From the NCBI RefSeq assembly GCF_013415905.1, contig NZ_CP058909.1, positions 2,046,001 through 2,110,000 of the forward strand: a DNA stretch of 64,000 nucleotides. The letters run 5' to 3'. Shown one piece after another: positions 10,224 through 29,794 of this stretch. Source of the DNA: Halosimplex pelagicum (GTDB lineage: Archaea; Halobacteriota; Halobacteria; Halobacteriales; Haloarculaceae). Each line of letters starts with the position of its first letter. The first letter of the stretch is position 1. A model generated the notes under the pieces. That model saw only the letters and a program-made list of their open reading frames with translations, was not told the origin of the DNA and did no database searches. The translations under genes and the position numbers were made by a program.

Positions 10224-10233
10224 CGCGCGAGCC

Positions 10234-10621: not shown

Positions 10622-13293
10622 GCGAGCGAGTGGAAGGTCCGGGGGCGGTGACCGACCCCGTCGTCGCCGAACTGCTCGACGCCGTCGAAGACCCGGCCGT
10701 CGTCTGCGACCCGGACGGGACCGTCCGCGCCTGGAACGGGCCGTTCGCCGAGCGGATCGAGGCGGACCCGCACGAGTCGTCGGTCGCGGCGGTCGTCGAC
10801 TGTCCGAGCGACCCGCTGGGGCGGGCGGTCGAGACCGGCGAGCGGACGATCGGGAGCGGGCCGGTCCGGTCGAGCGGTCGGGCGGTGACCGTCGCCGTCC
10901 GGCCGGTCGAGCGCGAGGGGGCGGTCACGGCCGCCGTGGTGACGCTGTCGGACGCGACGGACCCCTTCGAGACGGAGCGGGCGCTCTACGAGGCCAGCGT
11001 CGACGCGGCGGCCGACGCCGTCTACGTCGTCGACCGCTCGCACACGATCCGGGCCGCCAGCGACGGGTTCCGGCGCTTCACGGGTATCCCGACCGAGCGC
11101 GTCGAGGGGCGGGACGTGGACTGCCTGCGCGAGCTCGGGATCATCGACGGGGAGATCTTCCACGAGGGGATGCGGGCGCTGCGCGAGCTGTTCGCGGGCG
11201 CGGTCGACAGCCACACCGTCACCTCACACGTCCGGCTCGACGACGGGATGGGGTACGTCGAGAACCGGCTGTCGTCGATCGAGCGCGACGGCGAGGTCGT
11301 CGGCGTCGTCAACGTCGTTCGCGACGTGACCGAGCGCGAGCGCCGCCGGGAGGCGCTGGCGGCCAACCGCGAGCGCCTGTCGACCATCATGGAGGACCTG
11401 CCGGTCATGATGGTTGTGGTCGACGGCGATGGGCGGATCGACCACTGTCAGGGGCTGGACTTCGACGCGCTCGTCTGCGACCGGTCGGAGTTCCTCGGCG
11501 AGCCCGTCGAGGCGTTCGAGCCGGTGTGTCCGGACCTGGTCGATGGGTTCCACCGGGCGCTCGACGGGGAGACGGGCGACGCGACGGCGGCGATCGGCGA
11601 CCGGACCTACAAGGCGTGTTTCGAGCCGCTGACCCGGTCCGAGCCCGCGGAGAGCGGCGCGGACGAGCCGGCGCCGGCGGGCGCCATCGCCGTCGCCATC
11701 GACATCACCGACCGCACGCGGCGGGAAGCGGAACGGCAGGCCCGCGAGCAGGAACTGCGCGCGGTCATCGAGAGCAGCGCGGACCCGATCGCGATGCAGG
11801 ACGTCGACGGACGCTACCGGGTCGTCAACGAGGCGATGGTCGAGACCAGCGACGGCGACCGGGACTCGATCGTCGGGTCGACGCCGGAGGCGGTGTTCGA
11901 CGACCGGTTCGCGACGCGCGTCGAGGCCCACCGCCGGGCGGTGCTGGACACCGAGCGGGCCCGGGTCGTCGAGGAGACGATGGCCGGCGAGCCGACCGAC
12001 GAGACCGTCCAGTTGACGTTCGCGCCGTATCACGGTCCGGACGGTGAGGTGCAGGGGACCGTCAGCATCGCCAGGGACATCACCGAACTGGAGCGCCAGC
12101 GCGGCGAACTGGAGACGCTGGCGGAGATCCAGGAGCTCGTCCAGGAGAGCGTCCGGGCGCTGACGGGCGCGACGACCAGCGAGGCGATCAAGGAGAGCGT
12201 CTGCGAGCGGCTGGCCGACTCGGAGTACTACGAGTTCGCCTGGATCGGCCAGCGGGAGGCCTCCAGGCGGGAGGTGACCCCGACCCACTGGACGGGGATC
12301 GCCGACGACTACCTCGAGGAGATCACGGTCACGGTCGCGGCCGACGACCGTGGCGGCGGCCCGGCCGGCGAGGCCTACCGCACCGGCGAGGTGCAGGTCG
12401 TCCACGACGTGACGAGCGACCCGGTGTTCGAGCCGTGGCGCGAGGCCGCCGTCGAGAGCGGGGTCGGGTCGATGGTCGCGGTGCCGCTGACCCACGGGTC
12501 GACGACTCACGGTCTGCTCGCGGTGTACGCCGACCGCCCGAACGCCTTCAGCAGGCGGGAGCTGTCGGGCTTCGAGACCCTCGGCGAGGCGGTCGGCTTC
12601 GCGCTCGCGGCCGCCCAGTACCGACGGCTCGTCGAATCGGACTCCGTCCTCGAACTGGAGTTCGAGGTCCACAGCGGGACGCCGCTGTTCGCGGCCAGCC
12701 GCGAGCACGACTGCCGGTTCGAGATCGACCACGCGGTCCGGACCGGCGACGACCGCGTCGTCAACTACCTCACCGTCGAGGGCGCCGACCCCGAGGTCGG
12801 CGCGGCGGCCGCCGAAGAGCTGTCCAACCTCGTCGAGATCCGCGAACTCGACCGCGAGGACGGTCCGCACTTCGAGATGACGCTGACCGACTCGGTCTTC
12901 CGGTACCTCGCCGACGCCGGCGCGCGCGGCAAGCGCGGCATCGTCGAGGACGGCGTCGGGCACATGCTCGTCGAGGCGCCGGCGGACCTGGACGTGCGGC
13001 GGGTCACCGAGGCGATGGACGCTCGCTTTCCCGACGTGAGCCTGGCCGCCAAGCGCGAGCGCCACCGCACCGACGCCCCCTGGTGGCCGGGCCACGGCGA
13101 CATCGGCGCCCGGCTGACCGACCGCCAGCGCGCGGTCCTCAAGACGGCCTACTACAACGGCTACTACGAGTGGCCCCGCGACGCGGACTCCGAGACGCTC
13201 GCCGACTCGCTCGACATCGCCTCGACGACCTTCCTCCAGCACCTCCGCAAGGGCCACCGCCGCGTCCTCGAAGCCATGTTCGACTCGCAGTGA
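10618..13293 (+). CDS. PAS-GAF sensor with HTH-10 (bacterio-opsin activator-like) output
   Basis: An 891-residue cytoplasmic regulator. GTG 10618 is preferred over GTG 10603 because a purine-rich GGTGGGG precedes it. In order there are PAS-like domains at about 15-115, 120-235, 240-370 and 375-490. A GAF domain spans about 500-660, a Bat-type domain of two parts about 665-800, and a C-terminal HTH-10 about 825-885. The HTH-10 signature is LTDRQRAVLKTAYYNGYYEW followed by SLDIASTTFLQHLRKG. No histidine kinase core is present, so signals from PAS/GAF ligands (small molecules, redox or light) probably act directly on DNA binding. Targets are unknown. No TM segment is seen. Confidence 0.9.
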   Translation: MSERVEGPGAVTDPVVAELLDAVEDPAVVCDPDGTVRAWNGPFAERIEADPHESSVAAVVDCPSDPLGRAVETGERTIGSGPVRSSGRAVTVAVRPVEREGAVTAAVVTLSDATDPFETERALYEASVDAAADAVYVVDRSHTIRAASDGFRRFTGIPTERVEGRDVDCLRELGIIDGEIFHEGMRALRELFAGAVDSHTVTSHVRLDDGMGYVENRLSSIERDGEVVGVVNVVRDVTERERRREALAANRERLSTIMEDLPVMMVVVDGDGRIDHCQGLDFDALVCDRSEFLGEPVEAFEPVCPDLVDGFHRALDGETGDATAAIGDRTYKACFEPLTRSEPAESGADEPAPAGAIAVAIDITDRTRREAERQAREQELRAVIESSADPIAMQDVDGRYRVVNEAMVETSDGDRDSIVGSTPEAVFDDRFATRVEAHRRAVLDTERARVVEETMAGEPTDETVQLTFAPYHGPDGEVQGTVSIARDITELERQRGELETLAEIQELVQESVRALTGATTSEAIKESVCERLADSEYYEFAWIGQREASRREVTPTHWTGIADDYLEEITVTVAADDRGGGPAGEAYRTGEVQVVHDVTSDPVFEPWREAAVESGVGSMVAVPLTHGSTTHGLLAVYADRPNAFSRRELSGFETLGEAVGFALAAAQYRRLVESDSVLELEFEVHSGTPLFAASREHDCRFEIDHAVRTGDDRVVNYLTVEGADPEVGAAAAEELSNLVEIRELDREDGPHFEMTLTDSVFRYLADAGARGKRGIVEDGVGHMLVEAPADLDVRRVTEAMDARFPDVSLAAKRERHRTDAPWWPGHGDIGARLTDRQRAVLKTAYYNGYYEWPRDADSETLADSLDIASTTFLQHLRKGHRRVLEAMFDSQ

Positions 13294-13429
13294 GCCCACG
13301 TCCGCTCGCCCGGACACCCCCTCCCCGCGAAACGTCACCCTCTCGAACAGGTGAACGGAGTAACAGGTACCCTAGGCTTCTAGGGCCGATATTCTTTATG
13401 GAGAGCGAGCAACGGTAGGGTAGACGGGT

Positions 13430-13834
13430 ATGAGTGAACGGAGCGGGTCAAACGACGGAGGACGCGGTCGCACGAAGCCTGCGGTCGACGACCTGGAGGG
13501 GGATCGGCCGTTCATCGACACGGTGTTCGAAGCGCTCTCGGACTGGCGGCGCCGCGAGGTCTGCCAGTTCTTCCGGGAGGGCGACGTGAGCACGGCGACG
13601 GTGGACGAACTGGCGATGCTGCTCGCGGCCAGCGAGCCGGCGGGGCTCGGGGAGCCCCGCGGCCGCAGCCACGACGAGTTCGCGACCGAGCTCGTGGAGA
13701 CGCATCTCCCGCGGCTCGACGCGGCGGGCGTCGTCGACTACGACGACCGCTCGGACACGGTCCGCTACTGGGGCCAGCCGACCGTCGAGAAGTGGCTCGA
13801 ACACGTCACCGAGGTCGACGGCCGCAACAACTGA
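13430..13834 (+). CDS. DUF7344-type winged-helix protein
   Basis: A 134-residue protein starting at ATG 13430. The core IDTVFEALSDWRRREVCQFF begins a winged helix, followed by TVDELAMLLA and ETHLPRLDAAGVVDYD. This is the usual haloarchaeal DUF7344 pattern of a small ArsR/MarR-like DNA-binding domain. A TTTATGG box at about 13396-13402 could be its promoter. It is the last gene of the GC-rich backbone before the accessory region. A second family member lies at 23513-23899. Regulatory targets are unknown. Confidence 0.75.
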   Translation: MSERSGSNDGGRGRTKPAVDDLEGDRPFIDTVFEALSDWRRREVCQFFREGDVSTATVDELAMLLAASEPAGLGEPRGRSHDEFATELVETHLPRLDAAGVVDYDDRSDTVRYWGQPTVEKWLEHVTEVDGRNN

Positions 13835-13927
13835 GTCGCGCCGGCGCGGCGACCGGCAGTGGTCGCGCGGGGCGGGGTCGGCCCGCCGGCGGTCGGCTAT
13901 CACCGGCCCGACCGGAAAGCGGGGGTT

Positions 13928-14884
13928 CTACTGATGTATCCCCATCACCTCGATCTGCTCTTGATAGCGGTTGCGAATCGTCACTTCGGTCACTTGCGCC
14001 ACGTCGGCCACCGCTTTTTGGGTTCGTTTCTCGTTACAGAGCATAGCAGCCGCGTAAATCGCGGCAGCGGCGAATCCGGACGGGCCTCGACCCGATAGTA
14101 ACGGCTCGGCGGTTTCCTCGATGATCTCGTTGGCCTTCGTTTCGACCTCCTGTGGCAAATCGAGTTTCGAACTGAATCGGGGAACGTACTGTTTCGGATC
14201 TATGGGGAGGAGTTCGAGTCCCAGTTCGTTTGAAATGTAGCGATAGGTACGGCTGATTTCGATACGTTCGACACGCGATATTTCGGCTATCTCCTCTAAC
14301 GAGCGTGGAATGCCCTCCTGTCGACAACCAGCATACAGTGCAGCCGTGGCCACGCCTTCAATTGACCGGCCACGAATCAAATCCTCGTCCAATGCCCGCC
14401 GATAGATCACGCTCGTTACTTCACGGACGGAGCGCGGAACGCCGAGTGCGCTCGCCATGCGATCGATCTCGCTGAGGGCAAACTGAAGATTCCGCTCACC
14501 AGCGTCCTTCGTTCTGATTCGTTCTTGCCATTTGCGGAGTCGATGCATCTGGGATCGCTTTTTCGACGAAATCGAACGGCCATACGCGTCTTTATCCTTC
14601 CAGTCGATCTGGGTGGTCAGCCCCTTATCGTGCATCGTCTTGGTAGTGGGCGCACCGACGCGCGATTTCTCCTGGCGCTCTTGATGAGTGAACGCACGCC
14701 ACTCCGGTCCTGAATCGACCAACTCGTCTTCAATCACGAGGCCGCAATCGTCACAGACACGTTCACTCTGCCCTGAACTCTGGACGATAGTATGTGATCC
14801 TCCCGCTGCGCACGTCTCAGTATCTGTCTCTCCACTAGAGTGCTCCGTTTCGTTCTCCTCCTCGAGACGAACAGACCAAACCAT
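13928..14884 (-). CDS. tfb: Transcription initiation factor IIB (TFB) with altered zinc ribbon
   Basis: A 318-residue TFB. Start ATG 14884 ([16 protein letters not shown]) is preferred because the frame upstream looks non-coding and a TATA-like AACTTTATG lies about 30 bp before it. After the acidic N-terminus, the zinc ribbon keeps only three of four Cys: CAAGG replaces the first CxxC knuckle, while CDDCG is intact. The B-reader/linker [19 protein letters not shown] and both cyclin folds follow, with repeat signatures [14 protein letters not shown] and [15 protein letters not shown]. The C-terminal HTH ([13 protein letters not shown]) contacts BRE. It would recruit RNA polymerase to a promoter subset. 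Haloarchaea usually encode several TFBs. Its location at the edge of the accessory block suggests transfer or specialisation. Confidence 0.93.
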
Positions 14885-15089
14885 TGGTTTGTAACAGAAG
14901 AAGTACAGAGGCATAAAGTTTGAATTGCATATCTGACATCGATTGAAGAGAACTGATGAGGCTGATTCATACCCTAGAATAGAATCCATCGTTAACCCTA
15001 TCACTCGTTTGTTAGGATGGGGTGCGGGTTCTATGGTGCCACGTATTGCGAACCGACACGATTTACCTGTACCCTCTCGTATGCAACTC

Positions 15090-15374
15090 ATGGCAGATCT
15101 CAATTCCATTGCGAAACAGATTCACAACCTCAGCCCGGGTCCCGTCGAGATAACTCTTCAGGATGGATCGCAGGCAATATATCAGATCTCCAAAGCTGAG
15201 TTCTTTCAGCAGGAATTTCAGGCCGAAGGGACCCGAGAAAATGACGAACCTCGCTATCGATTCGTATCGAGTGAAGATAACGAATCAATTCTCATTGGAC
15301 GGAAGGAGCCAGATGAGTCCACCTGGACAATGGTCGGGCGTATTCAGGAAATCGGTGCAGTTGAAACTGAATGA
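15090..15374 (+). CDS. Small conserved-looking haloarchaeal protein, unknown function
   Basis: A 94-residue protein. ATG 15090 ([20 protein letters not shown]) or ATG 15081 are the plausible starts; the frame upstream looks non-coding. It has a predicted alpha helix followed by beta-rich segments ([36 protein letters not shown]). It resembles small haloarchaeal proteins annotated loosely as transcriptional regulators, but no HTH is visible. It diverges from the tfb gene. Function unknown. Confidence 0.6.
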
Positions 15375-16639: not shown

Positions 16640-16872
16640 GGCCATATGAATCTGAATCTTGGAACGGGTAACCAATAAGCATAGTGGGTTTATGGTAACA
16701 GTTCACAAGGGAGCCGGTTATAGGTGAGTGGTCCAGGGACTACTTATCAAGTGCATATACCGCACATGTAGCTGGCTTCGCGATGGCTGCAACCTGCCTG
16801 ATTCTTACCGTTTATACTGGACTTGGAATCGAGACAGGGGGTATATTATTCAGTCTGCTTCCTCCAGCCTCG

Positions 16873-18216
16873 ATGGAAGACAAACGGTGGTTCCTCTTCG
16901 CCCGTGTGAGTAGTGATGATCAACTGGACAACACCAGCACAGAAAAACAACTGTCCGATATTCGTCAGCGTACTGACGACCTGTCTGGTAGTATTACTGA
17001 TGAAATAGAACGTGCCGAATCGGGTGCCCAAATGGATCGCGAGTCGTTGAACAGAATCTTGGATATGGGGGAGAATGATGAGTTTGACGTGCTGGGGATC
17101 TGGAAATTAGATCGGCTGACTAGATCTGATCCATGGGAGAGCGTCAGTTATCTTCGGAAACTGCGCGAATCCGATATCATTCTGTACTCCCATAATCACG
17201 GTTTCTTCGACTGGGAGGACCGGCGAGATTTCGAGATCATGGTCCGTGAGGTACTGTTCTCAAGAGAATGGTACTCCCGAATCAAAGAAAACGCTGAAGA
17301 TGGTCAACTCAAACATCTTAAACAGGGGAAATATCCATTCGGGAGTCCCCACTGGGGATACACGACCGACGATGAGAAATATATCCGACTTACTGGACGT
17401 GGGGAGAATGTTATTCCAGAAATATTTGATATCTACGTGGAAACTGAAAATAGAGCGGAAACCAGACGTCGAGTGAATGATGAGCATGGGCTAAAAGATG
17501 ACCCGCTCACAGACACTCAAATAAAAACAATTCTTGAGAGCCCACTCTGCTTAGGCCAGTTGGGTCTGAAAGGACAAGTTGTCAATACGAAGGCAGACCT
17601 TCAGTGCGTTTCAAAAGAGACATTCAATCGAACTCAAGAAATTCTAGAAAGTCGATCTGGCTCTTCCTCCGAAGCTGAAGTGGTGCCTGAGTCGATCGGA
17701 CGAGCTGAAAAGAGGTTCGGTCCTGAGTTCATCGGGAACCTCTTCGACAAGCTGAGCACAGTCTGTCCTGAGCCTGACTGTAATGGAATATTGGAAGGAA
17801 CAAATTCAACGAGAACGGTGCGGAATCGCGTCCTCATCGAGTACACGTGTGGGAAGTGTGACTTCACTGGCCCGCTCTTTGATCAACAAGAGATCAATAA
17901 ACTGGATGCGACCATTCCGCTTGCCTGCCCATTCTGTGTATCGGTTGATGATGTCTCAGGAGAACAAGTATCGTCGTCTGCGCTTGAGTATCTCTACACC
18001 TGCAACAACTGTCAAAACGAGTTCGCGGTTGATGTCCCGCCCAATAAGTATCAACGGGCGTTTGAACATCCCGAAGTTGCTTTTCGTTGGGATCCAAACA
18101 GAGATCAGCCGTCTGAGGAAGTTGATGGGGTTAATCCGGAGGATACCGAATTTGTTTGGGGCAGGGAAATAATGTCCGATGGTGGTAGTGATCCCTGTTC
18201 TGATAGTGAAATGTAG
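16873..18216 (+). CDS. Large serine recombinase A with zinc-ribbon C-terminus
   Basis: A 447-residue site-specific recombinase. ATG 16873 starts right at the resolvase fold, MEDKRWFLFARVSSDDQ, with catalytic Ser13 and Arg11. The second active-site motif WKLDRLTRS lies near residues 77-85. A recombinase (DNA-binding) domain follows to about 280. The C-terminal third carries paired Cys clusters (CGKC, CPFC, CNNC), as in the zinc-ribbon domain of large serine integrases. It would cut and rejoin DNA through a phosphoserine link at attachment sites. It is on the opposite strand to recombinase B (19035-21375) and is not closely similar to it. It looks intact, so it may be the functional integrase of this block. 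Confidence 0.88.
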   Translation: MEDKRWFLFARVSSDDQLDNTSTEKQLSDIRQRTDDLSGSITDEIERAESGAQMDRESLNRILDMGENDEFDVLGIWKLDRLTRSDPWESVSYLRKLRESDIILYSHNHGFFDWEDRRDFEIMVREVLFSREWYSRIKENAEDGQLKHLKQGKYPFGSPHWGYTTDDEKYIRLTGRGENVIPEIFDIYVETENRAETRRRVNDEHGLKDDPLTDTQIKTILESPLCLGQLGLKGQVVNTKADLQCVSKETFNRTQEILESRSGSSSEAEVVPESIGRAEKRFGPEFIGNLFDKLSTVCPEPDCNGILEGTNSTRTVRNRVLIEYTCGKCDFTGPLFDQQEINKLDATIPLACPFCVSVDDVSGEQVSSSALEYLYTCNNCQNEFAVDVPPNKYQRAFEHPEVAFRWDPNRDQPSEEVDGVNPEDTEFVWGREIMSDGGSDPCSDSEM

Positions 18217-18276: not shown

Positions 18277-19038
18277 TTAGTTCGAGATCTCTTGGGTCTT
18301 CTTCCAGACAGTCTCCTTTGACACTCCACACGCAGCACCCACCTTAGCTAACGTAACTGATCTGCCCTGCTCTTTGGCTGCGAGATAGATACAGGCAGAG
18401 GCGAGGCTTGTCGGACTCCCAGTAGATTCAATTTCGGACGAGAGTATCTCCCGGGCCCGTCGTTCAACAGCTTGGTCCAAGCTGAGCTGGCATCTTAGAA
18501 ATGGGAGATACATTGCAGGGGGAGTGATTTCACTGTGAACATCGTATTCTGTTCTAAGTGCACGATATCCTGTTCGAAGCTGCTGATCTGATATTTCACA
18601 CGTTTGAGCGACGACTCTCAGAGGTCGCGGTGACTTTTGTTGTCGAAAGCTCGCATAGATTACTGCTGCTATTCCCACAGAGACACTGCGACCCTGAAAG
18701 TACTGGTCTTGCCATGCTTCAGCGAGCATCTCGGCCGTTTTGATACAGTTGTCGCTGTCACCTCTGAGAGCCCGAACGAACTCTTCTGCGATTGCTATCA
18801 TCTCAACTAGGGTGCCATCTGAGGAATCACGGACGGCTACTTTGTCCTCCCATTCTCCAGTGGTGCTCTCAGAGTTGGAAGATGTCCGAGACCGGGCATT
18901 CTCTTGTTTATATTCGTTTGCTACCTTATCTGGACCAGTAACGATGAAGCTACACTCCGAACAGAGTAATTCAGTTTCATTGATTGGTTCGGTTTCTGAG
19001 GATCCGCAAAGGGGGCATGTTGCTGATGAGACTGTCAT
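18277..19038 (-). CDS. Short, diverged TFIIB-like protein
   Basis: A 253-residue protein starting at ATG 19038. The N-terminal zinc ribbon CPLCGSSETEPINETELLC-SEC is complete (C8, C11 and the later CxxC pair). The B-reader/linker of true TFBs (the GPEWRAF and KSRVGAP phrases) is missing; a Ser/Asn-rich spacer replaces it. Two cyclin-like repeats remain, SVGIAAVIYASFRQQ and SPTSLASACIYLAAKEQG, ending in an HTH (GVSKETVWKKTQEI). The reading frame overlaps the upstream recombinase gene by four bases (ATGA), so the two are co-translated. It could be a dedicated promoter-selectivity factor for the element, or a competitor of host TFBs. That is inference. Confidence 0.82.
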   Translation of the reverse strand: MTVSSATCPLCGSSETEPINETELLCSECSFIVTGPDKVANEYKQENARSRTSSNSESTTGEWEDKVAVRDSSDGTLVEMIAIAEEFVRALRGDSDNCIKTAEMLAEAWQDQYFQGRSVSVGIAAVIYASFRQQKSPRPLRVVAQTCEISDQQLRTGYRALRTEYDVHSEITPPAMYLPFLRCQLSLDQAVERRAREILSSEIESTGSPTSLASACIYLAAKEQGRSVTLAKVGAACGVSKETVWKKTQEISN

Positions 19039-19768
19039 GAGAGATCTCCATTCTGGTGGGCCCGATATTCGTTGATAATCCGCTCTGCTTTTGATTGTTT
19101 CCGCGAACTATCCATCCCAGTTTGTGCATGCTTGAATCGAAACCTGATGGCCGTTGCTTCGTCAAAGACTGCGTCAGGTAGGATCTGGTATTCTTCGACG
19201 GTGGCTTGGAAGTCAGCAATTTGGTAGTGTCCAATATACAATTCATTCCGTAGCACTTTGCCTACGGACTGACGACACCACGAGTCTCCGCGTTTGGTCG
19301 TCTTACCACGGCGGTTGAGTAGGAAGGAAACCTGTGGCATCGATCGTTCTTGGATGTACAAGTCGAATATTAGACGGACCAGCTCTTTTTCTGTCTCGTC
19401 GACGCAAAGGGTTCCATCATCATTCTTTTCGTAACCAAGTGGAGGACGGTCGTTTGGCCACTTCCGTTCTCGAGCGAGTCCGTACATACCTAGTTTGACT
19501 CGCTGACTGGTCAGGTCGGACTCCAATTCAGCTGCCGATGCGAGATTCCGGAAGTTGAAACGACCAACCGGATTGGTCGTATCGAGAAATTCGGTTACGC
19601 TGTGGAGACCGACTCCCAACTTGTCGAGCTCTTCCTCGGTTTTGACGAGGTCCACAAGTGAACGGCAGAAGCGATCTAGTTTCCAGAATACGACGACGTC
19701 GAAGAGGCTGTCCCGTGCTCGCTTGAGCATCGATTGAAATTCAGGCCGTTCGGTATTGCGACCAGACT

Positions 19769-21159
19769 CAGTACCTCACAAAGCATCGCAGGTTAGCCTG
19801 ACCTGAGCCATCTGTTCTGTCGTGATGAGTCGTCGATAGCGGTTGAACAACACTGATTGATGGCGGAGCTGTCGCTGTCGGCGGCGCTCAGCCGCCGACG
19901 CGACAGCGTTGCCACTTGCGAAGACGCTTGTTCGGTCAGTGACTACCGGTAGAACCGGTCGTCAGGTGGGCGGTTCGCGGGGACGGCCCGACGCACCGCG
20001 AGGGCCGTCCACGCAGCCCGCCGAACCATATTCACGAACTCCTTGTACGGCCACCACCAGAGGCGACGCCCGCCTCGGCGGGGCGTCGCCACGTATTCAT
20101 AGTGCAGATACCGCCACGCGTTCTGCAATAGCAGACTCACCACGACGTACAGCAGTCTCACCGTTGCATTTCGCGTCGTTGTCGTCGCTATCGCTTGCTC
20201 GGACAAGCGATAGCTCGACTCGATACCGAAGCGTTTCGAGTAGTGGTATCGAGCGTCGCGTGGCGTCTCGATGAACGGCGCGTCAGCGGCGTAGCCGTGA
20301 CGCGCCACGCCGTGGTCGTCGTACTTCCCGTTCAGGTACGTACAGTCGATGTAGACGGGAAACTCGACGGTCCAGCTGTGACCGTCGAGTTTCCCTGTCA
20401 GATCGTGTTGGATGACGCGGCTCCACCCTTCCGAGAGTTCCTGCTGAATCTTTTCTCCCCACCGGATGATCGGGACCACGTAGGCGTAGTTGTGCGCCTG
20501 AAGCAACGTGAGGCACTTGCTGTCGTAGAATCCGCGATCAAGGTAGACGGCCTTGACTTCGGTGTCAAGGCCGTCGAGGACACCAAGGAACTCAGCGAGG
20601 ACACTGCTGGCGGTGTCGCCGTCTTCGAGACGGCGCACCGCCAGCGTGTATCGTTTGTTCCTCACGCGTGCGTAGAGTGTGGCATAGGCGTGGAACGCGG
20701 TGGTTCCACGCTTGGCTTCCGAGCGGTAGAGAGCGTCTGTGTCGTCTTCGTCACCGTAGTAGGGCCGCAGGTGGAGGTCTGCGCAGACCTCCACCTGCTC
20801 GGGGAGAAGTTCGACGATGTCCCGTCGAAGAAGGGTGTTAGCGACTCGTTCGAGCCGTTCCGGCTCGAACTTCGTCCGGAGGTGGTAGAGGATCGTGTTC
20901 GCCGATGGCGAGTCTTCACTGGCGTTGCATAGCGTGGAGATCGAGGTCCCGTCGGCGGTTGCGCCGACGAGGACCTCGTAGATGTCCGCTACATCGATTT
21001 CAGCGTTGTTGGCGAGGTTGAGAGAAACTTCCTCGTCAAGTCGGTTGACGAGGAAGTTAAGAAGCTGGTCTTCGTGGATTTCACTGTCTGCTTGCTGCTG
21101 GTGTTTGGACACATCTTCAGCAAGCAGACGTTCTAACTAACCGGCTTTGTGAAGTACTG
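19769..21159 (-). mobile_element. ISH3-family insertion sequence, 1391 bp
   Basis: Terminal inverted repeats are CAGTACCTCACAAAGC (19769-19784) and GCTTTGTGAAGTACTG (21144-21159), 16 bp with one mismatch. A 5-bp target duplication AGACT flanks the element (19764-19768 and 21160-21164). Length, repeat size and duplication size fit the ISH3 family as known in haloarchaea. The single transposase gene looks intact and the flanks are perfect, so the insertion is probably recent. Confidence 0.95.
19943..21112 (-). CDS. ISH3-family transposase
   Basis: A 389-residue DDE transposase starting at ATG 21112 (MSKHQQQADSEIHEDQLLNF). The acidic catalytic region includes VCADLHLRPYYGDEDDTD near residue 110, AVYLDRGFYDSK (second Asp) near 190, and the KRFGIESSYRLSEQ segment (Glu of the triad) near 290. 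The C-terminal hydrophobic helix RLLYVVVSLLLQNAWRYL is typical for ISH3 proteins. No stop or frameshift interrupts it. Confidence 0.92.
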   Translation of the reverse strand: MSKHQQQADSEIHEDQLLNFLVNRLDEEVSLNLANNAEIDVADIYEVLVGATADGTSISTLCNASEDSPSANTILYHLRTKFEPERLERVANTLLRRDIVELLPEQVEVCADLHLRPYYGDEDDTDALYRSEAKRGTTAFHAYATLYARVRNKRYTLAVRRLEDGDTASSVLAEFLGVLDGLDTEVKAVYLDRGFYDSKCLTLLQAHNYAYVVPIIRWGEKIQQELSEGWSRVIQHDLTGKLDGHSWTVEFPVYIDCTYLNGKYDDHGVARHGYAADAPFIETPRDARYHYSKRFGIESSYRLSEQAIATTTTRNATVRLLYVVVSLLLQNAWRYLHYEYVATPRRGGRRLWWWPYKEFVNMVRRAAWTALAVRRAVPANRPPDDRFYR

Positions 21160-21659
21160 AGACTCTGCTTCATCAGCAAACACGAATATAACGTCCCATG
21201 TGGCGTTCTCACAGAATTCCCAACATCGTCTGACTTGTTCGTCAATCGAATATCCAAACCGCTGGCTATTCGACGAGGTTCGGGCGTAGATCGCTGCCTG
21301 CAGGTCTTCATCTGGTTCTGTTGTGTCTTCTCCATTTATTGTGCCACCTGGGCGAGAGGATGGAACATTATCCATACTACATTCCTCCGTCAGCAGTTGC
21401 AGACAGACGCAACTCAACGAGTGTCTCCGACTCCGCACAGTATGGACAGAGAGGATGCTGGTCTGGCCCAAGTTCTACGGGGATGTTTTCCCTGTCATAC
21501 TTTGTTAAACAGTTTGGGCACTCCCACAACTGGACGTTATATTCTTCGGTTAATTCCGGGTATTTTTCAGCAAGTGTTGGTGTCAACGTCGCTCCCTCAT
21601 GGGCCTCAAGGTAGTCAACGACCTTGTCTCGGGGATATAAATTGACATTCGGAACAAAG

Positions 21660-22599
21660 GGCTGTGTTGAATCGCTGTAAGGCGGTGGATTTCACTGTTT
21701 CACGGCTCGCTTGATGTTATAGACCACACACATCAGGGCAATCTCGCGGAACTCACGGAACCAGGAGCGCGCTCGCACGGCGAAGCCGAGCGAGCGCTTG
21801 ACTGCCGAGTTGACAGTCTCGGTCATAGAGCGCTGATTGTAGCGATTTTCGTCGATTCTGGCATTGTGCGCGTGGTCGTAGGGCGCGAAGATCCGATGCT
21901 TGATCAGCGGTCTGATGTCGAGCTCACGTAGTGATTCACGGAGTGACTGCTTGTCGTAGCCTTTATCGGCGGCGAGAGACCGCAGATCGCCCGCGTTCCG
22001 GCGGGCGATCTGCTCGGCGAGGTCTGCGTCGCTTCCTTCACGGTTCGTCGAGCAGTGTACGTCGAGGACGGCTTGGGAGTCTGTATCGACGAGTTTCGTG
22101 ACTTTGAGCTTCTGGACGCGGTAGCTTGTTCGCTGGCAGTAGTGGCGGCTCGCAGCTGAGCGGTCGTAGAATGTGGCGTCGATCGCGGCGTGTTTCGAGG
22201 GATCGTGCAGCTGCGCCGACTGGCGCAGCAGCACTCGACAGACGCTCATCTCGATCCGGTCGAACGCTTTACACACGGTGGACGGATGCGGGAGATCGGC
22301 CACGTCAAGGCCGATCTCCCCGGTTATTTGTGGCATCTCCTTCAGCAGGTCGATCGTCATGCGGTAGGACGCATCGAGGTAAATCCGCAGACAATGGATG
22401 GAAACGAGGGTGTACTCGGCGAATCCGCCGCCCCGGACGGCGGCGGCGGATTCGCCTCGTTCACCCGTAACCCTTTGAGCGATCGAGACACAACGTTCGG
22501 TGAAGCGGAAGATTTGCGTCATGGACAACGGAAGCCTCCCGCTTCAACTCCTTTGATTTAGCGACCGATCCCGCCGCCATCTAGTGATTCAACAGAGCC
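21660..22599 (-). mobile_element. IS5-type insertion sequence, 940 bp
   Basis: The ends share the inverted repeat GGCTgTGTTGAATCgCT / GGCTcTGTTGAATCaCT (about 17 bp, two mismatches). The target duplication is GAACAAAG, at 21652-21659 and 22600-22607, 8 bp and perfect. One intact transposase gene lies inside. The same TGTTGAAT end motif marks two other elements in this window (32865-33808 and 41883-42811). The insertion separates the nuclease domain from its zinc ribbon. Confidence 0.94.
21692..22528 (-). CDS. IS5-family transposase
   Basis: A 278-residue DDE transposase starting at ATG 22528 (MSMTQIFRFTERCVSIAQRV). The catalytic Asp motifs are AAIDATFYDRSAASRHY and SLAADKGYDKQSLRE, and the Glu region is NQRSMTETVNSAVKRSLG. 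The C-terminus RSWFREFREIALMCVVYNIK is common to the haloarchaeal IS5-type proteins in this window. It appears intact. Confidence 0.92.
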   Translation of the reverse strand: MSMTQIFRFTERCVSIAQRVTGERGESAAAVRGGGFAEYTLVSIHCLRIYLDASYRMTIDLLKEMPQITGEIGLDVADLPHPSTVCKAFDRIEMSVCRVLLRQSAQLHDPSKHAAIDATFYDRSAASRHYCQRTSYRVQKLKVTKLVDTDSQAVLDVHCSTNREGSDADLAEQIARRNAGDLRSLAADKGYDKQSLRESLRELDIRPLIKHRIFAPYDHAHNARIDENRYNQRSMTETVNSAVKRSLGFAVRARSWFREFREIALMCVVYNIKRAVKQ

Positions 22600-23512
22600 G
22601 AACAAAGGCTTTGGGGCTCATATCCGCATAAGGTGTATCGCCTTTTCCGCAACGTTCGCGATACGAACAGTACTCACATTCCCAGTCGGCTTCTGGCTGA
22701 GCTGGTGGGAGGTTATCGCTGAGTCGATATTCTGTATGCGTGTTAGCCCATGACAAGACTGTCTCATTCCAGAATTTTGTATCGAATTCGACATGGAAGA
22801 CCTTCATCTCGAATGTGTCGCGCGAAATATAGATGAGAACACCTTCAGTCGGGTTTCGGTCTTGTTCTACGGAGAGTCCTGCCATATACGCGTGCAATTG
22901 AGCGCGATGACGTCTGTCCGGTGAGTCTTTGTACTCTATCGATGATGTGGTTTTTATTTCCGTCGGCAACAATGGTTCACTCTCTTCGTCGACGAGCACT
23001 GGATCTGTTACACCCTTGATCCGAACTTCGTTGCCTTGTATCTCGACATCGAAATCGATCCACATTGAGTTCCGTACAAAGGTTTGGTCAGTGCTGATAA
23101 CATCCTGCAAGAATGGAAGAACAACGTCCTCCTCAATGCGCCGTCCAGTCCAGAGAATTCCTTCTGCATCATCCTGTTCTTCGGGTGCATTTTCCTGCCC
23201 GTAGTAGATTTTCCGGTGACACTGAAGGAGTTTACTTGGACTGTGGCGCTCTGAGGGTGGAACTGAACTCGGTCCATTAAAATACGGTTTCCCATCACGA
23301 ATATTCTGCCGGAACTCCCGGTTCTGATACCACTCTTTGAACCGCACAGTCGTCATATCTTTCAGCAGTTGACTAACACTATCTCCATCAACTGGGGTAT
23401 CTTCCGATTTTGAGTTGCGGGAATCGTCGGTTACCATTCTGGTCAACGTTCCGAGGTAGACATCCATAGTCAATGGCTCATTTGCGGTTCCTGATACACG
23501 CACAAGCGAATT

Positions 23513-23899
23513 TTACTTCCGATAGAAGGCCTCAATCGCCGGTTTGCTGAGGTTCAACAAGAGCGCAGCCAAGTCGAAAAACGAGCCCTTTTCGACGGTC
23601 TGCCGCTGGGGGTCATAGACGATTACTTCCGCGTTTGTTAGTGTCGGCAAGTGACTCTGGGATAATGCATTGTATACGTTTTTGTAAGGTTCTCCACTCG
23701 CATGTTCGACTGCGATCCCATTTTCTATGGCTGCAATCTGTCGTGCTAACCAGCGGGTGGATACTGTGTTCCCGTTCTTCACATGTTCAAGAATCTGTAT
23801 TATCTGACGCCGTCGTGATGCCCGCAAAGCGTGTAGCAGCGTGGAAAGCAGTTCTTCGAGATCTTCATCTCCGATGTCTGAGTGGTTGTTACTGTCCAT
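23513..23899 (-). CDS. DUF7344-type HTH protein, first gene of the nuclease-recombinase operon
   Basis: A 128-residue protein with preferred start ATG 23899 (MDSNNHSDIGDEDLEELL); ATG 23932 extends it. The winged-helix region TLLHALRASRRRQIIQILEH and ALSQSHLPTLTNAEVIVYDP resembles DUF7344 proteins such as the one at 13430-13834. It ends 9 bp before the GTG start of the nuclease gene. It is therefore the promoter-proximal gene of the operon and a candidate regulator of it. Function otherwise unknown. Confidence 0.72.
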   Translation of the reverse strand: MDSNNHSDIGDEDLEELLSTLLHALRASRRRQIIQILEHVKNGNTVSTRWLARQIAAIENGIAVEHASGEPYKNVYNALSQSHLPTLTNAEVIVYDPQRQTVEKGSFFDLAALLLNLSKPAIEAFYRK

Positions 23900-24089: not shown

Positions 24090-24350
24090 ATGCGCTTTGA
24101 CGCTGACTGGATGTCGCGTGCTGATGATCGCATCTTAGAGCATCTGGCCGAACGTGGACCAGATACGCCCAAAGAGATGGCAGACAGTGATCGGGTCCGA
24201 TTTTCACGCCAACATATCAACGCTCGGTGCAAGAAGCTCGTTTCGTACGGCTTACTGGTTCATCTTGGGAATGGGGTCTACGACATTACTCGTGACGGGG
24301 AACACTATCTTGTTGGGGAGCTTGATGTCCGAGAATTAGAATCTAGATGA
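24090..24350 (+). CDS. PhiH1-repressor-like winged-helix protein
   Basis: An 86-residue protein starting at ATG 24090 (MRFDADWMSRADDRILEHLA). The winged helix DTPKEMADSDRVRFSRQHINARCKKL, split as DTPKEMADSDRVRF and SRQHINARCKKL, leads into SYGLLVHLGNGVYDITRDG. This layout is shared with the repressor of halophage PhiH1 and many plasmid or provirus regulators. It is divergent from the DUF7344 operon across about 190 bp and could control it. The 200 bp after it (24351-24555) show no convincing feature. Confidence 0.75.
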   Translation: MRFDADWMSRADDRILEHLAERGPDTPKEMADSDRVRFSRQHINARCKKLVSYGLLVHLGNGVYDITRDGEHYLVGELDVRELESR

Positions 24351-25810: not shown

Positions 25811-26253
25811 TCAGAGCTGGGGTTCGACTTCGTCAAAGAGGTCGGTCACGAGCCGTTGGATCTCGTCGCGGATGCGACCGACCTCAGCAGCCGACTTCCC
25901 GTCCGGGTCGTCGAGATTCCAATCGCGGTTCTCACCCGCCCATCCCGCGGGACAGACGTCGTCGGCTGAACACCCATCGTGATGACGTAGTCGCTCTCTT
26001 GGGTTTCCTCGAACGTGATCTCTCGAGGAGTCCGTCTCGAGATATCGATGCCAACTGCGTGCATCGCCCGAACCACCTCGTCGTGGACGTGGTCGGCAGG
26101 GCGCGTTCCACCAGTTATGAGTTCGATTGCGTCCTCGAGTCCTTGCTGTTCAACTTCTCGCTGTGCGAGCGCGTAGGCCATCTGCGAGCGACCTGCATTC
26201 TGCACGCAGACGAAGGCAATTCTCAGCGGTTCGGATTCTGTGTTCTCAGTCAT
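25811..26253 (-). pseudogene. arsC: Arsenate reductase-like protein (LMW phosphatase fold), frameshifted
   Basis: Start ATG 26253 overlaps the upstream arsC-like gene by 8 bp. The active-site loop VCVQNAGRSQM (nucleophile Cys then GRS) and the DYVITMG motif are intact. After ITMG the frame is lost: one missing base near 25970-25974 turns the expected GCSADDVCPAGWAGE into GVQPTTSVP. The correct downstream frame continues to a stop at 25811, encoding ENRDWNLDDPDGKSAAEVG and IRDEIQRLVTDLFDEV. A full-length protein would be about 147 residues. It is the last gene of the ars operon and probably inactive as it stands. Confidence 0.85.
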
Positions 26254-26716
26254 GTATTACGCGGTTCGCGCGACGCTCCGCCTGTGTCGGCAGCTCGTCG
26301 AAGAGTTCGATCACCTGCTGTTCGATTTCGGTACTGATCGCCCAGACGGACTCCCGATCGGCGTCTACTGGGTCGACGAACCCCCAGTCTCGAACGACGA
26401 CCCCGGGTGGAATGTCCTCGATCGATAGTGCACAGCCCATCAATACGACAAAATCGCACGCCTCAAGCGCATCGCGGGTGATCTTCTCCGGTGACTGGTC
26501 GGATAAGTCGTAGCCTTTCTCAGACATCACCTCTATGACGGTCGGATGTATCGCGGCAGCGGGACCGGTCCCACCAGAAACGATCTCAACGTCACTTCGA
26601 TTCTGAACCTGAACTTGGGTTTCGGCGAGCGCGGCGGCGATTTGGCTCCGGCCTGCGTTTTCGACGCAAGCGAATCCGAGGCGAAGCGGATCAGGGGTGT
26701 CTGTGTGTGGTGCCAT
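26246..26716 (-). CDS. arsC: Arsenate reductase-like protein (LMW phosphatase family), second copy
   Basis: A 156-residue protein starting at ATG 26716. It keeps the P-loop CVENAGRSQIAAAL and the core ISGGTGPAA-like segment VSGGTGPAAAIHPTVIEVM, followed by DFVVLMGC. It is diverged from the other two copies, with IEDIPPGVVVRDWGFVDPVD in place of the usual DWALDDPDG. It could reduce arsenate by the LMW-phosphatase mechanism or act on another substrate. It lies 15 bp downstream of acr3 and overlaps the frameshifted third copy by 8 bp. Confidence 0.82.
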   Translation of the reverse strand: MAPHTDTPDPLRLGFACVENAGRSQIAAALAETQVQVQNRSDVEIVSGGTGPAAAIHPTVIEVMSEKGYDLSDQSPEKITRDALEACDFVVLMGCALSIEDIPPGVVVRDWGFVDPVDADRESVWAISTEIEQQVIELFDELPTQAERRANRVIHD

Positions 26717-26731
26717 CGGTGGGTCCTTTCG

Positions 26732-27898
26732 TCAGTCGTCTTCAGCGGGCGGTGGGGAGGAAGACGTGCTGAGCTGTCCGGTCGTGGCACCACTCCAGTC
26801 GAACTTGCGCTGAAAGTACAGCGCCACGTTGACCAACGCCAACAGGACAGGGACCTCGATGAGCGGGCCGACGACGGTCGTGAACGCGACACCGGAGCCG
26901 ACGCCGAACACAGCAACCGCGACCGCGATTGCGAGTTCGAAGTTGTTCGAGGCGGCGGTGAACCCAATGGCCGTCGTCGTCGAGTAGTCTGCGCCGATGC
27001 CCTTGCCCATCCCGAAGCTGACGAGGAACATCACGACGAAGTAAATCGTCAGCGGGACGGCGATCAGGAGTACGTCACCGGGGGAGGCAACGATGTTCTC
27101 GCCTTGCGTGGCGAACATCACGATGACGGTGAAGAGGAGCGCGACGAGCGTGACTGGGTCGATCTTCGGGACCAACGTCTCGTCGTACCACTTCTCGCTC
27201 TTGGCTCGCGTGCCGACGTACCGGGTAAGGAACCCGCCCACGAAGGGGATTCCGAGGAAGATAACGATCGCCTGGAACACCTGCATCGGGGTCACGTTGA
27301 ACGTCTCGATGCCCGCGACGAGCGTTTCCATCCCGAGCAGCGGCGGAAGGAATAGCCCGAAGAACCAGACGTAGACACCATACGTGATGATCTGGAAGAG
27401 GCTGTTGAACGCGACCAGCCCGGTGACGTACTCGGTCGAACCCTCTGCAAGTTCGTTCCAGACAAGTACCATCGCAATACAGCGGGCCATTCCGATGAAC
27501 ACGAGGCCGAGGAAGAACTCGGGGCGAGCAGGCAAGCCAGGAACGAGTCCACTGAAGAAGATCACAGCGAGTCCGAACATAAGCGTCGGGCCGATCAACC
27601 AGTTTTGAATTAAGCTTAGTCCGAGCACACGCCAGTTGCTGAACACGGCCCGCAGTTGGGAGTAGTCAGCCTTCGCCAGCGGCGGATACATCATCGCGAT
27701 GAGGCCGATTTCGACGAGATGGAAGTCCTGAATCGGCTGGGTTACCGACGGGGCGACGAATCCGAGTCCCACACCGATGGCCATCGCACCGAGGATCCAG
27801 ACGGTGAGGTACTTATCGAGGAAGTCCATCGACCGCGGGTCGCCACAGCTCTCACACTCACAGTTCGGGCCATGGTCGTGGGCGTCGACGTTACTCAT
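26732..27898 (-). CDS. acr3: ACR3-family arsenite efflux permease
   Basis: A 388-residue membrane protein starting at ATG 27898. The N-terminus is a soluble Cys/His-rich tail (HDHGPNCECESCGD) that may bind As(III) or metal. About ten TM segments follow. Family signatures are MYPPLAKADYSQL, the conserved Cys in GMARCIAMVLVWN and FTAASNNFELAIAVAVAVFG. It exports As(III) using the membrane potential. The GTG/ATG overlap with arsM is 8 bp, so translation is coupled. It is full length and apparently intact. Confidence 0.94.
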   Translation of the reverse strand: MSNVDAHDHGPNCECESCGDPRSMDFLDKYLTVWILGAMAIGVGLGFVAPSVTQPIQDFHLVEIGLIAMMYPPLAKADYSQLRAVFSNWRVLGLSLIQNWLIGPTLMFGLAVIFFSGLVPGLPARPEFFLGLVFIGMARCIAMVLVWNELAEGSTEYVTGLVAFNSLFQIITYGVYVWFFGLFLPPLLGMETLVAGIETFNVTPMQVFQAIVIFLGIPFVGGFLTRYVGTRAKSEKWYDETLVPKIDPVTLVALLFTVIVMFATQGENIVASPGDVLLIAVPLTIYFVVMFLVSFGMGKGIGADYSTTTAIGFTAASNNFELAIAVAVAVFGVGSGVAFTTVVGPLIEVPVLLALVNVALYFQRKFDWSGATTGQLSTSSSPPPAEDD

Positions 27899-28745
27899 CG
27901 CCGACCTCCGGCTTTCGAGCGGTGATAGTCGCAGAAACGAGGAACTCGCTCACGTCGTAATCGTCATCCCAGTCACGGATGAACTCGTCACTGTCGTCTT
28001 TCGGTGCGATGTTCACCGATTCGAAGCCTGTGTCGGTGAGTATCGTCTCGAGTCCGTCGATGGTCGACGCACCAGCGACACAGGACGCTACGGAGTCCGG
28101 ATCGGCACGGACATCATCCGGCACCGCTGCAGTCAGTACGACGTCAGAGATCGCGAGTCGCCCGCCGGGACGGAGAACGCGAAACGCTTCGTCGGAGACT
28201 TGGGGCTTATCAGGCGAGAGGTTCACGACACAGTTCGAGATGATCACGTCAATACTCTCGTCTGAAGCCGGGAGATGTTCGATCTCACCGAGGCGGAACT
28301 CGACGTTCTCGGCGTCGTTTTGACTGGCGTTCGTACGCGCTTTTTCGACCATCTCGGGTGTCATATCCACGCCGATCACACGACCCGCCTTGCCGACTTC
28401 TTGGGCCGCGAGGAAGCAGTCGAAGCCCGCGCCTGATCCGAGGTCAAGAACCGATTCACCTGCATCAAGCGACGCGATTGCTTGGGGATTCCCACACCCG
28501 AGTCCCAGGTTTGCGTTGCCGTCGACACTCTCCAACTCGGTCTTAGAGTAGCCGAGTTGGCGGGCCGTTTCGTCGGTGGGAGCCGTCGTTTCTGCGGAAC
28601 TGCAACAGGAATCGTCGCTCGAACAGCAGTCACTCTCCGCTTCGTTCTTCCCCGCAGCAATACTGGCGTACCGTTCTCGGACGACCTTCCGTTGGGTCTT
28701 TGCGTCGAGACCGGACTCCGTTGAGGTGTCGCTCGTTTCAGGCAC
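27891..28745 (-). CDS. arsM: Arsenite S-adenosylmethionine methyltransferase
   Basis: A 284-residue protein starting at GTG 28745. The N-terminal segment has paired Cys clusters (DCCSSDDSCCSS), followed by LGYSKTELESVDGNANLGLG and CGNPQAI, the ArsM signature. The SAM-binding motif is VLDLGSGAGFDCF, and NCVVNLSPDKPQV carries a further conserved Cys used in As(III) binding. It methylates As(III), leading to volatile or exportable species. It overlaps arsC upstream and acr3 downstream by 8 bp each. Family assignment is strong. Confidence 0.93.
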   Translation of the reverse strand: MPETSDTSTESGLDAKTQRKVVRERYASIAAGKNEAESDCCSSDDSCCSSAETTAPTDETARQLGYSKTELESVDGNANLGLGCGNPQAIASLDAGESVLDLGSGAGFDCFLAAQEVGKAGRVIGVDMTPEMVEKARTNASQNDAENVEFRLGEIEHLPASDESIDVIISNCVVNLSPDKPQVSDEAFRVLRPGGRLAISDVVLTAAVPDDVRADPDSVASCVAGASTIDGLETILTDTGFESVNIAPKDDSDEFIRDWDDDYDVSEFLVSATITARKPEVGDE

Positions 28746-29181
28746 TCGTGGTCACCTCCTGTTCGATTTCGTCGAAAAGCGCACTCACACGATCACGGAT
28801 CTCATCGCGGACTTCTCGGACTCGGTCGACGTCTTTCCCATCGGGATCGTCCAGTGCCCAGTCACGGATGTCTACATCGGAGTCGTCAGCGTCGAGTTCG
28901 AGCGTCGAACAGCCCATCGTGGTGACGTAGTCACACGATTCGAGTTCCTCCGTCGAAATCTTCCGCGGTGTCCGTTCAGAGAGGTCGAATCCCTCCTCGC
29001 GCATCACCTCAACGACGACGTCGTGAACGTGATCGGCAGGGTGGGTTCCGCCAGTGAGAATCTCGACAATGTCGGCGAGATCTCGACGCTCCCGTTCGTG
29101 TTCGGCGAAGGCAGTCGACATCTGTGATCGCCCGGCGTTCTGGACGCACATGAACGCCACAGAGACTGGTGTGTCACTCAT
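28738..29181 (-). CDS. arsC: Arsenate reductase (LMW phosphatase / thioredoxin-linked type)
   Basis: A 147-residue protein starting at ATG 29181, which overlaps the arsR stop as ATGA. The P-loop CVQNAGRSQMSTAF holds the nucleophilic Cys. GGTHPADHVHD, DYVTTMGCST and DWALDDPDGKD complete the haloarchaeal ArsC pattern. It reduces arsenate to arsenite for export by Acr3 or methylation by ArsM. It looks intact, unlike the copy at 25811-26253. Confidence 0.92.
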   Translation of the reverse strand: MSDTPVSVAFMCVQNAGRSQMSTAFAEHERERRDLADIVEILTGGTHPADHVHDVVVEVMREEGFDLSERTPRKISTEELESCDYVTTMGCSTLELDADDSDVDIRDWALDDPDGKDVDRVREVRDEIRDRVSALFDEIEQEVTTSA

Positions 29182-29576
29182 TGACCCACCTCTCGCGTCT
29201 CGTTGAGCGCTGTCAGAAGCGCCTCGGCCCGATCGGTCGTCTCGTAGTACCGCCACGTCCCGTCTTTTCGTCGCGTGACGAGCCCGGCGTCGTAGAGATC
29301 CGAAAGGGCGTGACTGATCGCGCTGTCACTGACGTCGACGATCGGATTGATTTCGCAGACGCACAGCTCCCGATCCGCGGCCGTCAGTAAACGGACGATG
29401 TTGTATCGAGTATCGTTCCCTAGCGTCTTGAGCGCAGTTAGATCGGTGTCAGGATTGGTCGGTGTCTCCGATTGATACGAGCGCAGCGAATCGAGCCGTT
29501 CCTCGATATCGGCTTCACAGCAGCCACCACTTTCCTCAGTGATGAGGCGTTCGAGTCGTTCCGTTTGTGAGCCCAT
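29178..29576 (-). CDS. arsR: ArsR-family arsenic-responsive repressor
   Basis: A 132-residue winged-helix protein. ATG 29576 is chosen because the TATA box at about 29600 puts transcription start next to it. A Cys pair lies in the N-terminal part (EESGGCCEAD). The HTH region is LKTLGNDTRYNIVRLLTAAD, followed by the metal-sensing ELCVCEI motif in helix alpha-3 and SDSAISHALSDLYDAGLVTR. As(III) binding to CxC would release DNA. It is the first gene of the arsenic operon. Confidence 0.92.
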   Translation of the reverse strand: MGSQTERLERLITEESGGCCEADIEERLDSLRSYQSETPTNPDTDLTALKTLGNDTRYNIVRLLTAADRELCVCEINPIVDVSDSAISHALSDLYDAGLVTRRKDGTWRYYETTDRAEALLTALNETREVGQ

Positions 29577-29599
29577 AGATGGCTGATTGAACAGACACT

Positions 29600-29608
29600 C
29601 ATATAATG
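29600..29608 (-). promoter_or_regulatory. TATA box of the arsenic operon
   Basis: On the minus strand the sequence reads CATTATATGA about 26-30 bp before the arsR ATG. The transcript would be nearly leaderless and would cover six genes to 25811. No clear palindromic ArsR operator could be picked out by eye. The stretch 29640-29934 contains no intact gene. Confidence 0.55.
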
Positions 29609-29772
29609 GTGTCGAGATAGAGGTCACCGTTACATTCTACGCGCTATACGCACCCAAGACAGCCTCCACAACAGCATATACATTGAGACGACCAGTTTCA
29701 ACTACTGCGCGACCTCCGTTCGAACCCCGTTCCGAGAATAATCGCAAGACTGCAAGCAGATAGCTTGCTACA

Positions 29773-29794
29773 CAATCTACATAATGTACAATAT
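29773..29794 (+). repeat. Partition-site-like 22-bp repeat, copy 1
   Basis: It begins CAATCTACATAATGTA and ends CAATAT. It matches the three copies upstream of parA (31212-31233, 31275-31296, 31374-31395) in 16 or more of 22 positions. It lies downstream of the ParB-like gene, so the repeats bracket the par operon. Confidence 0.6.

Follow-up and report, generated by a model that had tools for sequence, protein, structure and literature searches.

Composition and distribution of the module

The minus-strand operon at positions 18277–23899 of the 64,000-nucleotide stretch of the Halosimplex pelagicum chromosome analysed here (contig NZ_CP058909.1, positions 2,046,001–2,110,000; hereafter the window) consists of four genes, two of them interrupted by insertion sequences (ISs), and includes a shortened serine recombinase, SR, beside a short TFIIB-like protein, TFB. 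Domain searches of the window frames confirmed the set of helix-turn-helix (HTH) protein, nuclease, recombinase and TFIIB-like protein proposed in an initial annotation, which had also correctly given the spacings of a 9-bp gap, a 1-bp gap and a 4-bp overlap and had rightly removed two ISs in its reconstruction. The first gene encodes a DUF7344 HTH protein (23513–23899; PF24035, E-value 1.2e-19). Next, a Cas4-like nuclease is split into a 5′ piece (22600–23503, in a frame spanning 22589–23503), which holds the active site and the Fe-S cysteines and matches PDDEXK_1 (1e-10) and Cas_Cas4 (7.5e-7), and a 3′ piece (21376–21659), which encodes a zinc ribbon and aligns with the C-terminal region of an intact relative; the minus-strand IS between them occupies approximately 21660–22599, with a DDE_Tnp_1 transposase at 21692–22528. 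The SR gene is likewise divided. Its 5′ piece (21160–21375, frame 21133–21471) contains the catalytic serine and matches the N-terminus of the SR of locus L048, while its match to the resolvase domain PF00239 (2.8e-4) lies slightly below the Pfam cut-off; the 3′ piece (19035–19768, frame 19035–19730) encodes the catalytic and recombinase domains (Resolvase, 5.4e-17; Recombinase, 1.3e-11) without a zinc-ribbon domain, and the second minus-strand IS lies between the two at approximately 19769–21159 (transposase 19943–21112). Finally, TFB (18277–19038; PF00382, 3.7e-15) overlaps SR by 4 bp. With two ISs in its genes, the window copy of the module is probably inactive. Undamaged copies occur elsewhere, for example at L120 and L124, loci of Halobacterium sp. 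KA-4 and Halorubrum halodurans.

The four-gene set was incomplete, as two further recurring members had been missed in the initial annotation. The first gene of the module is a divergent plus-strand gene for a small winged HTH (wHTH) protein (24090–24350), which has relatives at the corresponding position of other loci and matches the transcriptional regulator family PHROG_2440 (3.2e-28). On the other side, a second serine recombinase of 477 residues, SR2, is encoded convergently on the plus strand (16783–18216; PF00239, 2.1e-15; PF07508, 5.4e-5) and ends in a zinc-ribbon-like stretch, which scores 25.5 bits against PF23451 (1e-5) and thus falls below the cut-off of 27; it is 60% identical to the SR2 of L056.

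The recurring module therefore comprises the divergent wHTH, the DUF7344 HTH, the Cas4-like nuclease, SR and TFB in either order, and the convergent SR2. With a profile built from 17 SR sequences, all found beside TFB, and a cut-off of 1e-50, the SR subfamily was detected 29 times among 392 Halobacteriales genomes, in 28 of them, which represent 24 of 95 genera. TFB adjoins SR in all 28 loci that extend past SR, the remaining match being a contig-end fragment from a genome already counted, and both the SR-TFB and the TFB-SR gene orders occur. The nuclease adjoins the pair in 21 of the 28 loci, is split by the IS in the window, and is missing or past the contig end in six. As read from gene maps, 26 loci have a convergent SR2; none was seen in L038, and in L218 its orientation is different. 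Since TFB adjoins SR throughout and the nuclease and SR2 do so in fewer loci, the strict unit is SR plus TFB. The DUF7344 HTH is found directly 5′ of the nuclease, TFB or SR, depending on the locus: genome G177 has the order wHTH, HTH, TFB, SR without the nuclease, and in G031 the HTH directly precedes SR. Another nuclease-free module, in L218, has the HTH directly 5′ of TFB; its neighbours are three tyrosine recombinase genes and one serine recombinase gene.

The co-occurrence that the initial annotation had suggested checking was found: the genes keep their order across many genera and at differing locations, and haloarchaeal plasmids as well as genomic islands rich in defence genes carry the module. 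Its recurrence in many genera argues against a chance arrangement.

The SR-TFB pair and the DNA upstream of SR2

What is surprising about the module is that a shortened serine recombinase is paired with a trimmed TFIIB. SR and SR2 both carry the resolvase catalytic domain PF00239 and the recombinase domain PF07508 (SR in pieces), and SR ends after the latter, lacking the C-terminal zinc-ribbon and coiled-coil part that provides site recognition in large serine recombinases. Its similarity to known families breaks off accordingly: residues 29–266 of SR align with 10–249 of the 542 positions of CcrB (3.2e-35), which is the N-terminal half only, the match to the integrase family PHROG_95 covers positions 81–365 of 651, and the Ccr and XisF matches in general cover roughly the first half of those proteins. 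Judged by these alignments, SR is a shortened relative of the large serine recombinases.

The best NCBIfam matches of SR are the serine recombinases CcrA, CcrB and CcrC of the staphylococcal cassette chromosome (SCC), with CcrB at 3.2e-35 and 1.2e-35. SCC resembles the module in keeping two recombinase genes together on a cargo-bearing island, and CcrA and CcrB work in pairs. The module differs, however, in an SR without the C-terminal half and in its TFIIB-like and Cas4-like partners, and with 122–123 of 900 bits SR scores far under the curated Ccr equivalog cut-offs. The XisF-type excision recombinases were also matched below cut-off, at 8.8e-31 by the SR of L064, 9.9e-19 by the SR2 of L036 and 1.6e-10 by the window SR2; we know of no TFIIB partner of XisF. 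In a review, archaeal serine recombinases are described as observed in transposons and never fully investigated (PMC8371274). Among the papers listed in the literature searches, mostly from outside subscription journals, no title or beginning of an abstract mentions a serine recombinase paired with TFIIB.

TFB was compared with the canonical TFB encoded at 13928–15109 of the window, using an alignment of 21 module TFBs. Like the canonical protein, the module TFB has a zinc ribbon and two cyclin repeats, and the four zinc cysteines are kept in all 21 sequences, although the ribbon of the window protein scores under the Pfam cut-off. The linker from the ribbon to the first cyclin repeat, in contrast, measures 25–35 residues in every module TFB versus 71 in the canonical one, from which it follows that the B-reader, the part of TFIIB that enters RNA polymerase, and the B-linker are missing. 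The recognition helix of the second repeat is also changed. A glutamate replaces the valine of the canonical protein in all 21 sequences, and three residues further on, two past an invariant threonine, stands a tryptophan in all nine proteins of SR-TFB order and an arginine in all 12 of TFB-SR order. We take these two positions to be the counterparts of V283 and R286 of human TFIIB, which contact the TFIIB recognition element (BRE). Against the NCBIfam TFIIB model the module TFB reaches 88.8 of 384 bits and stays below the cut-off. A related arrangement is described for the thaumarchaeal integrative and conjugative elements, where a TFIIB homologue likewise forms part of what is probably an operon on integrated mobile DNA, but is accompanied by ParB and conjugation genes and by no serine recombinase (PMC6563490). 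L219 has both, ParB-like genes (assigned by eye) and a TFB-SR pair.

A candidate DNA partner lies upstream of SR2. In seven loci of TFB-SR order, the region 5′ of SR2 contains a dyad whose spacer is 16 bp long in every one; its arms vary among loci and match within each, with one mismatch in L036. In the five loci with a confidently placed catalytic motif, the dyad starts 243–275 bp before that motif. Of the 14 half-sites, 10 have an A/T run of at least six bases outside the arm, the background for these regions being 0.128 (P 7e-7, a guide only, because the runs and the spacer were noticed before testing), and a box G[TC][AG]CAG lies farther out in 8. The TATA-like runs and outer boxes flank the dyad symmetrically, as mirror images. 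A profile built on the seven loci was run at a threshold of 12 over 3.3 Mb including overlapping copies. It hit SR2-bearing loci alone, each at the 5′ end of SR2, including nine unseen ones (L039, L079, L218, L219, L109, L112, L125, L127 and L134), with no match at threshold elsewhere in the DNA scanned, so that the dyad is found in 16 of 22 SR2-bearing loci, L038 and L130, in which no SR2 was seen, being left out of the count. These matches are better evidence for the dyad than an inverted-repeat spacer test, in which a spacer of 16 with exact arms of at least seven was found in 8 of 14 loci, whereas in 60 shuffles no spacer reached more than four; other repeats account for three of the eight, however (L044, L067 and L219), and nested longer arms raise the counts at spacers of 18–22. 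Among loci of SR-TFB order a spacer of 16 stands out in 1 of 11 only; several of these have a different conserved block at the same place 5′ of SR2, in the window at 16719–16761 on the plus strand, and both the dyad and this block contain TATA-like runs. L063 and L075 are 92% identical through the module and lose their similarity at the outer edge of the SR2-upstream block, beyond which the flanks are unrelated, which makes this edge a candidate element end.

Our preferred reading, held tentatively and at a little short of an even chance, is that the module performs site-specific recombination for plasmids and islands, SR and TFB forming a two-part recombinase in which TFB gives site recognition in trans. 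The truncation of SR together with its pairing with TFB suggests that TFB replaces the missing part; TFB, perhaps with the TATA-binding protein (TBP), would supply the recognition that other large serine recombinases hold in their own C-terminal domain. SR2 would be the partner recombinase, by likeness to the paired CcrA and CcrB, the HTH and wHTH proteins would regulate the operon, and the nuclease could be an optional, interchangeable helper in DNA-end processing or in the establishment of incoming DNA. The recombination activity itself is predicted. A more specific version, possible but distinctly less secure, makes TFB a TFIIB-derived recombinase subunit that, probably with TBP, binds the mirrored TATA-like outer boxes around the core with its 16-bp spacer in place of the lost recognition domain; if true, promoter-type recognition would have been given to DNA integration. 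Should the pairing hold, a transcription initiation factor has been reused in DNA recombination, a defined pair of proteins and a candidate DNA site become available for tests in vitro, and an exchangeable recombination module travels near defence and DNA-modification genes among haloarchaea.

The main rival places TFB at the same site as a private regulator of module transcription, which, having no B-reader, would sit on TBP-promoter complexes and prevent initiation, or would direct the polymerase to module promoters alone, the dyad being the SR2 promoter with a symmetric operator. The retained zinc ribbon and cyclin repeats would suit such a regulator, as would the position of the dyad and the other block, with their TATA-like runs, at the 5′ end of SR2. 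A promoter needs one side only, however, whereas the TATA-like runs and outer boxes are mirrored on both, and TFB is coupled in both gene orders to SR and not to SR2 or the HTH; this explanation is accordingly rated as doubtful.

Several observations weigh against a TFB-guided recombinase. The dyad is missing from L044, L058, L059, L067, L111 and L212 (the last a 3-kb contig that may fall short), and the profile has no match in the loci of SR-TFB order, the window included; in L112, conversely, SR2 and the dyad are present although SR and TFB are lacking. Taken together, this indicates that the dyad goes with SR2 and not with TFB, and it could be an ordinary operator-promoter. The split between tryptophan and arginine may merely mark two lineages, and distant SR genes lacking a TFB could have been missed, because the profile came from TFB-neighbouring genes and the cut-off was strict. 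In the two islands whose ends could be read, these are foreign to the module, consisting of a 9-bp repeat beside a tyrosine integrase in the window's island and of IS copies in G173, and neither a recombination product nor an att pair or empty site belonging to the module came to light. In addition, archaeal mobile elements carry TFIIB genes in other contexts too (PMC6563490).

The Cas4-like nuclease and its exchangeable partners

Relatives of the nuclease (1e-10 or better) occur in 52 of the 392 Halobacteriales genomes, the window genome included, and in 33 of the 95 genera, and 50 of 55 matches lie within a stop-free frame of at least 372 codons. In named genomes, 44 loci were detected: haloarchaea account for 38, with 38–100% identity (query included), and other archaea for six weak ones. 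Eight plasmid records also carry the gene. A viral origin was considered and rejected, as 50,697 phage records gave no match and eight viral contigs matched at 21–25% identity only.

The Cas4 motifs D, ExK and Q and the four Fe-S cysteines are present and invariant in an alignment of 30 sequences (D140, E155, K157, a glutamine, C68, C249, C252 and C258), and all seven residues named in the initial annotation (D167, E182, K184, C95, C276, C279 and C285) proved invariant. The terminal zinc ribbon that it had described is indeed encoded by the 3′ piece, with C319 invariant and C322, C343 and C346 kept in at least 90% of the sequences. The protein shares the PD-(D/E)XK core and four-cysteine pattern with Cas4 and the Cas4 proteins of mobile genetic elements (TIGR00372, PHROG_1706), but differs in the extra zinc ribbon, in its recombinase or Orc1 neighbours and in its score of 55.8 bits against the NCBIfam cas4 equivalog, whose cut-off is 65. 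The only PDB relative detected by sequence is 4ic1 (8.1e-7).

The tie of the nuclease to the operon stood in part only. Besides the window, 54 nuclease loci were fetched and classified from gene maps: SR and TFB lie near the nuclease in 22 (among them L048, where they stand outside its operon), tyrosine-recombinase-type genes, mostly accompanied by small DNA-binding proteins, in about 12, an adjacent Orc1/Cdc6-like gene in about 12, and about eight fall in none of these classes. Nuclease loci without a serine recombinase are in part what the initial annotation had named as evidence against its proposal. That one core can be joined to different partners is best seen from L065, of the serine type, and L072, of the tyrosine type, which share 87% DNA identity across the wHTH, HTH and nuclease genes up to the end of the nuclease gene; because the similarity stops there, the recombinase block is the exchanged part.

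The alternative module, seen in L071, L072, L074, L068, L033 and L062, consists of the nuclease, mostly with the HTH, and one or two pairs of a small DNA-binding protein and a tyrosine recombinase. Its protein of about 190 residues, for which the L072 member was tested, has no Pfam, NCBIfam or PHROG match. The tandem pairs resemble the multi-tyrosine-recombinase elements of the Tn554/RIT type, from which the window-type module differs in having serine recombinases and TFB. Since the tyrosine recombinases also have a small DNA-binding partner gene, they offer a parallel to the recognition in trans suggested for SR. In L040, L041, L042, L049, L078, L081 and L084, an Orc1/Cdc6-like gene directly precedes the nuclease, mostly with an HxlR-like wHTH and with transposases nearby, an arrangement that looks like a plasmid replication cassette. 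A common insertion point between the HTH and the nuclease was also considered, as several loci have cargo there, but the breakpoints vary by locus and for this reason no such site is claimed.

Islands, their ends and their cargo

The module of the window lies near the left end of a large island. Chromosomal similarity stops at 13922–13927 in six of seven other genomes of the genus and at 13834 in the seventh, whose assembly is fragmented. The shared sequence of four relatives closes with the same nine bases, GCGGGGGTT (13919–13927), which are followed by other DNA. The sequence of G209 resumes at 2571812 and again at 2617293 of the window chromosome, so that the window lies at the left boundary of an island measuring about 512 or 557 kb, and GCGGGGGTT is present at both ends of the longer version. 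Between window position 13928 and chromosome positions 2571812 and 2617296 (L245, L247), about 512 kb of integrated DNA is followed by a 45.5-kb stretch whose beginning occurs twice, a duplication that may be real or an assembly effect. In the island regions read (2046001–2370000, 2495000–2573500 and 2585000–2618800), at least four Orc1/Cdc6-like frames were found, which points to an integrated megaplasmid. A tyrosine integrase adjoins the right junction, where the sequence is common to the window genome and G209, and from this position it is the likelier agent of integration. The module as integrase of the island, considered because its SR2 lies 2.9 kb from the left end, was therefore set aside, although the two module recombinases give the only two PF00239 matches in the window genome; the island, at least 512 kb long, probably owes its integration to an enzyme other than the module's.

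The closest relatives of the window SR, TFB and SR2 are found in G173, on a 60-kb plasmid-derived insertion (chromosome 1899657–1960037) with three Orc1/Cdc6-like frames. A copy of the same IS, in the same orientation, forms each boundary of the insertion, an 8-bp repeat lies outside the two copies, and G416 and G275 show the site without interruption. Searches of Halorhabdus and Halorubrum DNA for empty sites gave island rearrangements only and no clean module ends, the two Halorhabdus junctions read showing short shared stretches of about 6–7 bp. The integrative element with a dedicated transcription factor that the initial annotation envisaged was half right; no self-contained element with two defined ends was demonstrated.

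These surroundings bear on an explanation by plasmid maintenance, in which the nuclease and its neighbours maintain a plasmid and the recombinases resolve dimers or invert segments, without any integrative element. The Orc1/Cdc6-like neighbours in about 12 of the 54 nuclease loci, the eight plasmid records, the Orc1-like frames on the integrated DNA carrying the G173 and window modules, and the ParB-like genes (by eye) before TFB-SR in L219 would all fit. One core with different recombinase blocks, varied cargo and many places has, however, the look of a mobile element, and L063 and L075 diverge at the same place past SR2 into unrelated flanks; plasmid maintenance is therefore considered unlikely.

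The cargo varies by locus. In a comparison with PADLOC, which counts families and not proteins, 77 of 106 genes upstream of serine- and tyrosine-type modules were set against 77 of 120 control genes, leaving out 27 upstream genes from Orc1-type or unassigned loci and two others. The upstream genes matched 336 families versus 57 for the control, many families being variants of one protein and the control matches listed coming mostly from CRISPR-Cas genes. PbeA, PbeC, DndD and type I restriction-modification proteins are among the upstream matches, Cas1 is not among the 25 families listed of the 336, and Pfam searches added McrBC, QueC and GTP cyclohydrolase near modules, the last two once each. 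The presence of such genes near many modules would agree with a part of a defence island, made of an immune nuclease and phase-variation recombinases. This is improbable, as the cargo changes between loci and PADLOC matched, among the seven module proteins scanned, only the nuclease, as Cas4 (1.2e-15), and marginally the wHTH (9.7e-4), with no match for SR, TFB, SR2 or the HTH.

L057 (approximately 8408–14693) contains archaeosine/queuosine-type genes (assigned by eye), some of them between the HTH and the nuclease of a module, as expected for a DNA-modification system. Next to the module on the window's island, at 25846–31186, genes were assigned by eye to arsenate-reductase-like proteins, methyltransferases, a ParA-like ATPase and an ArsR-like HTH protein.

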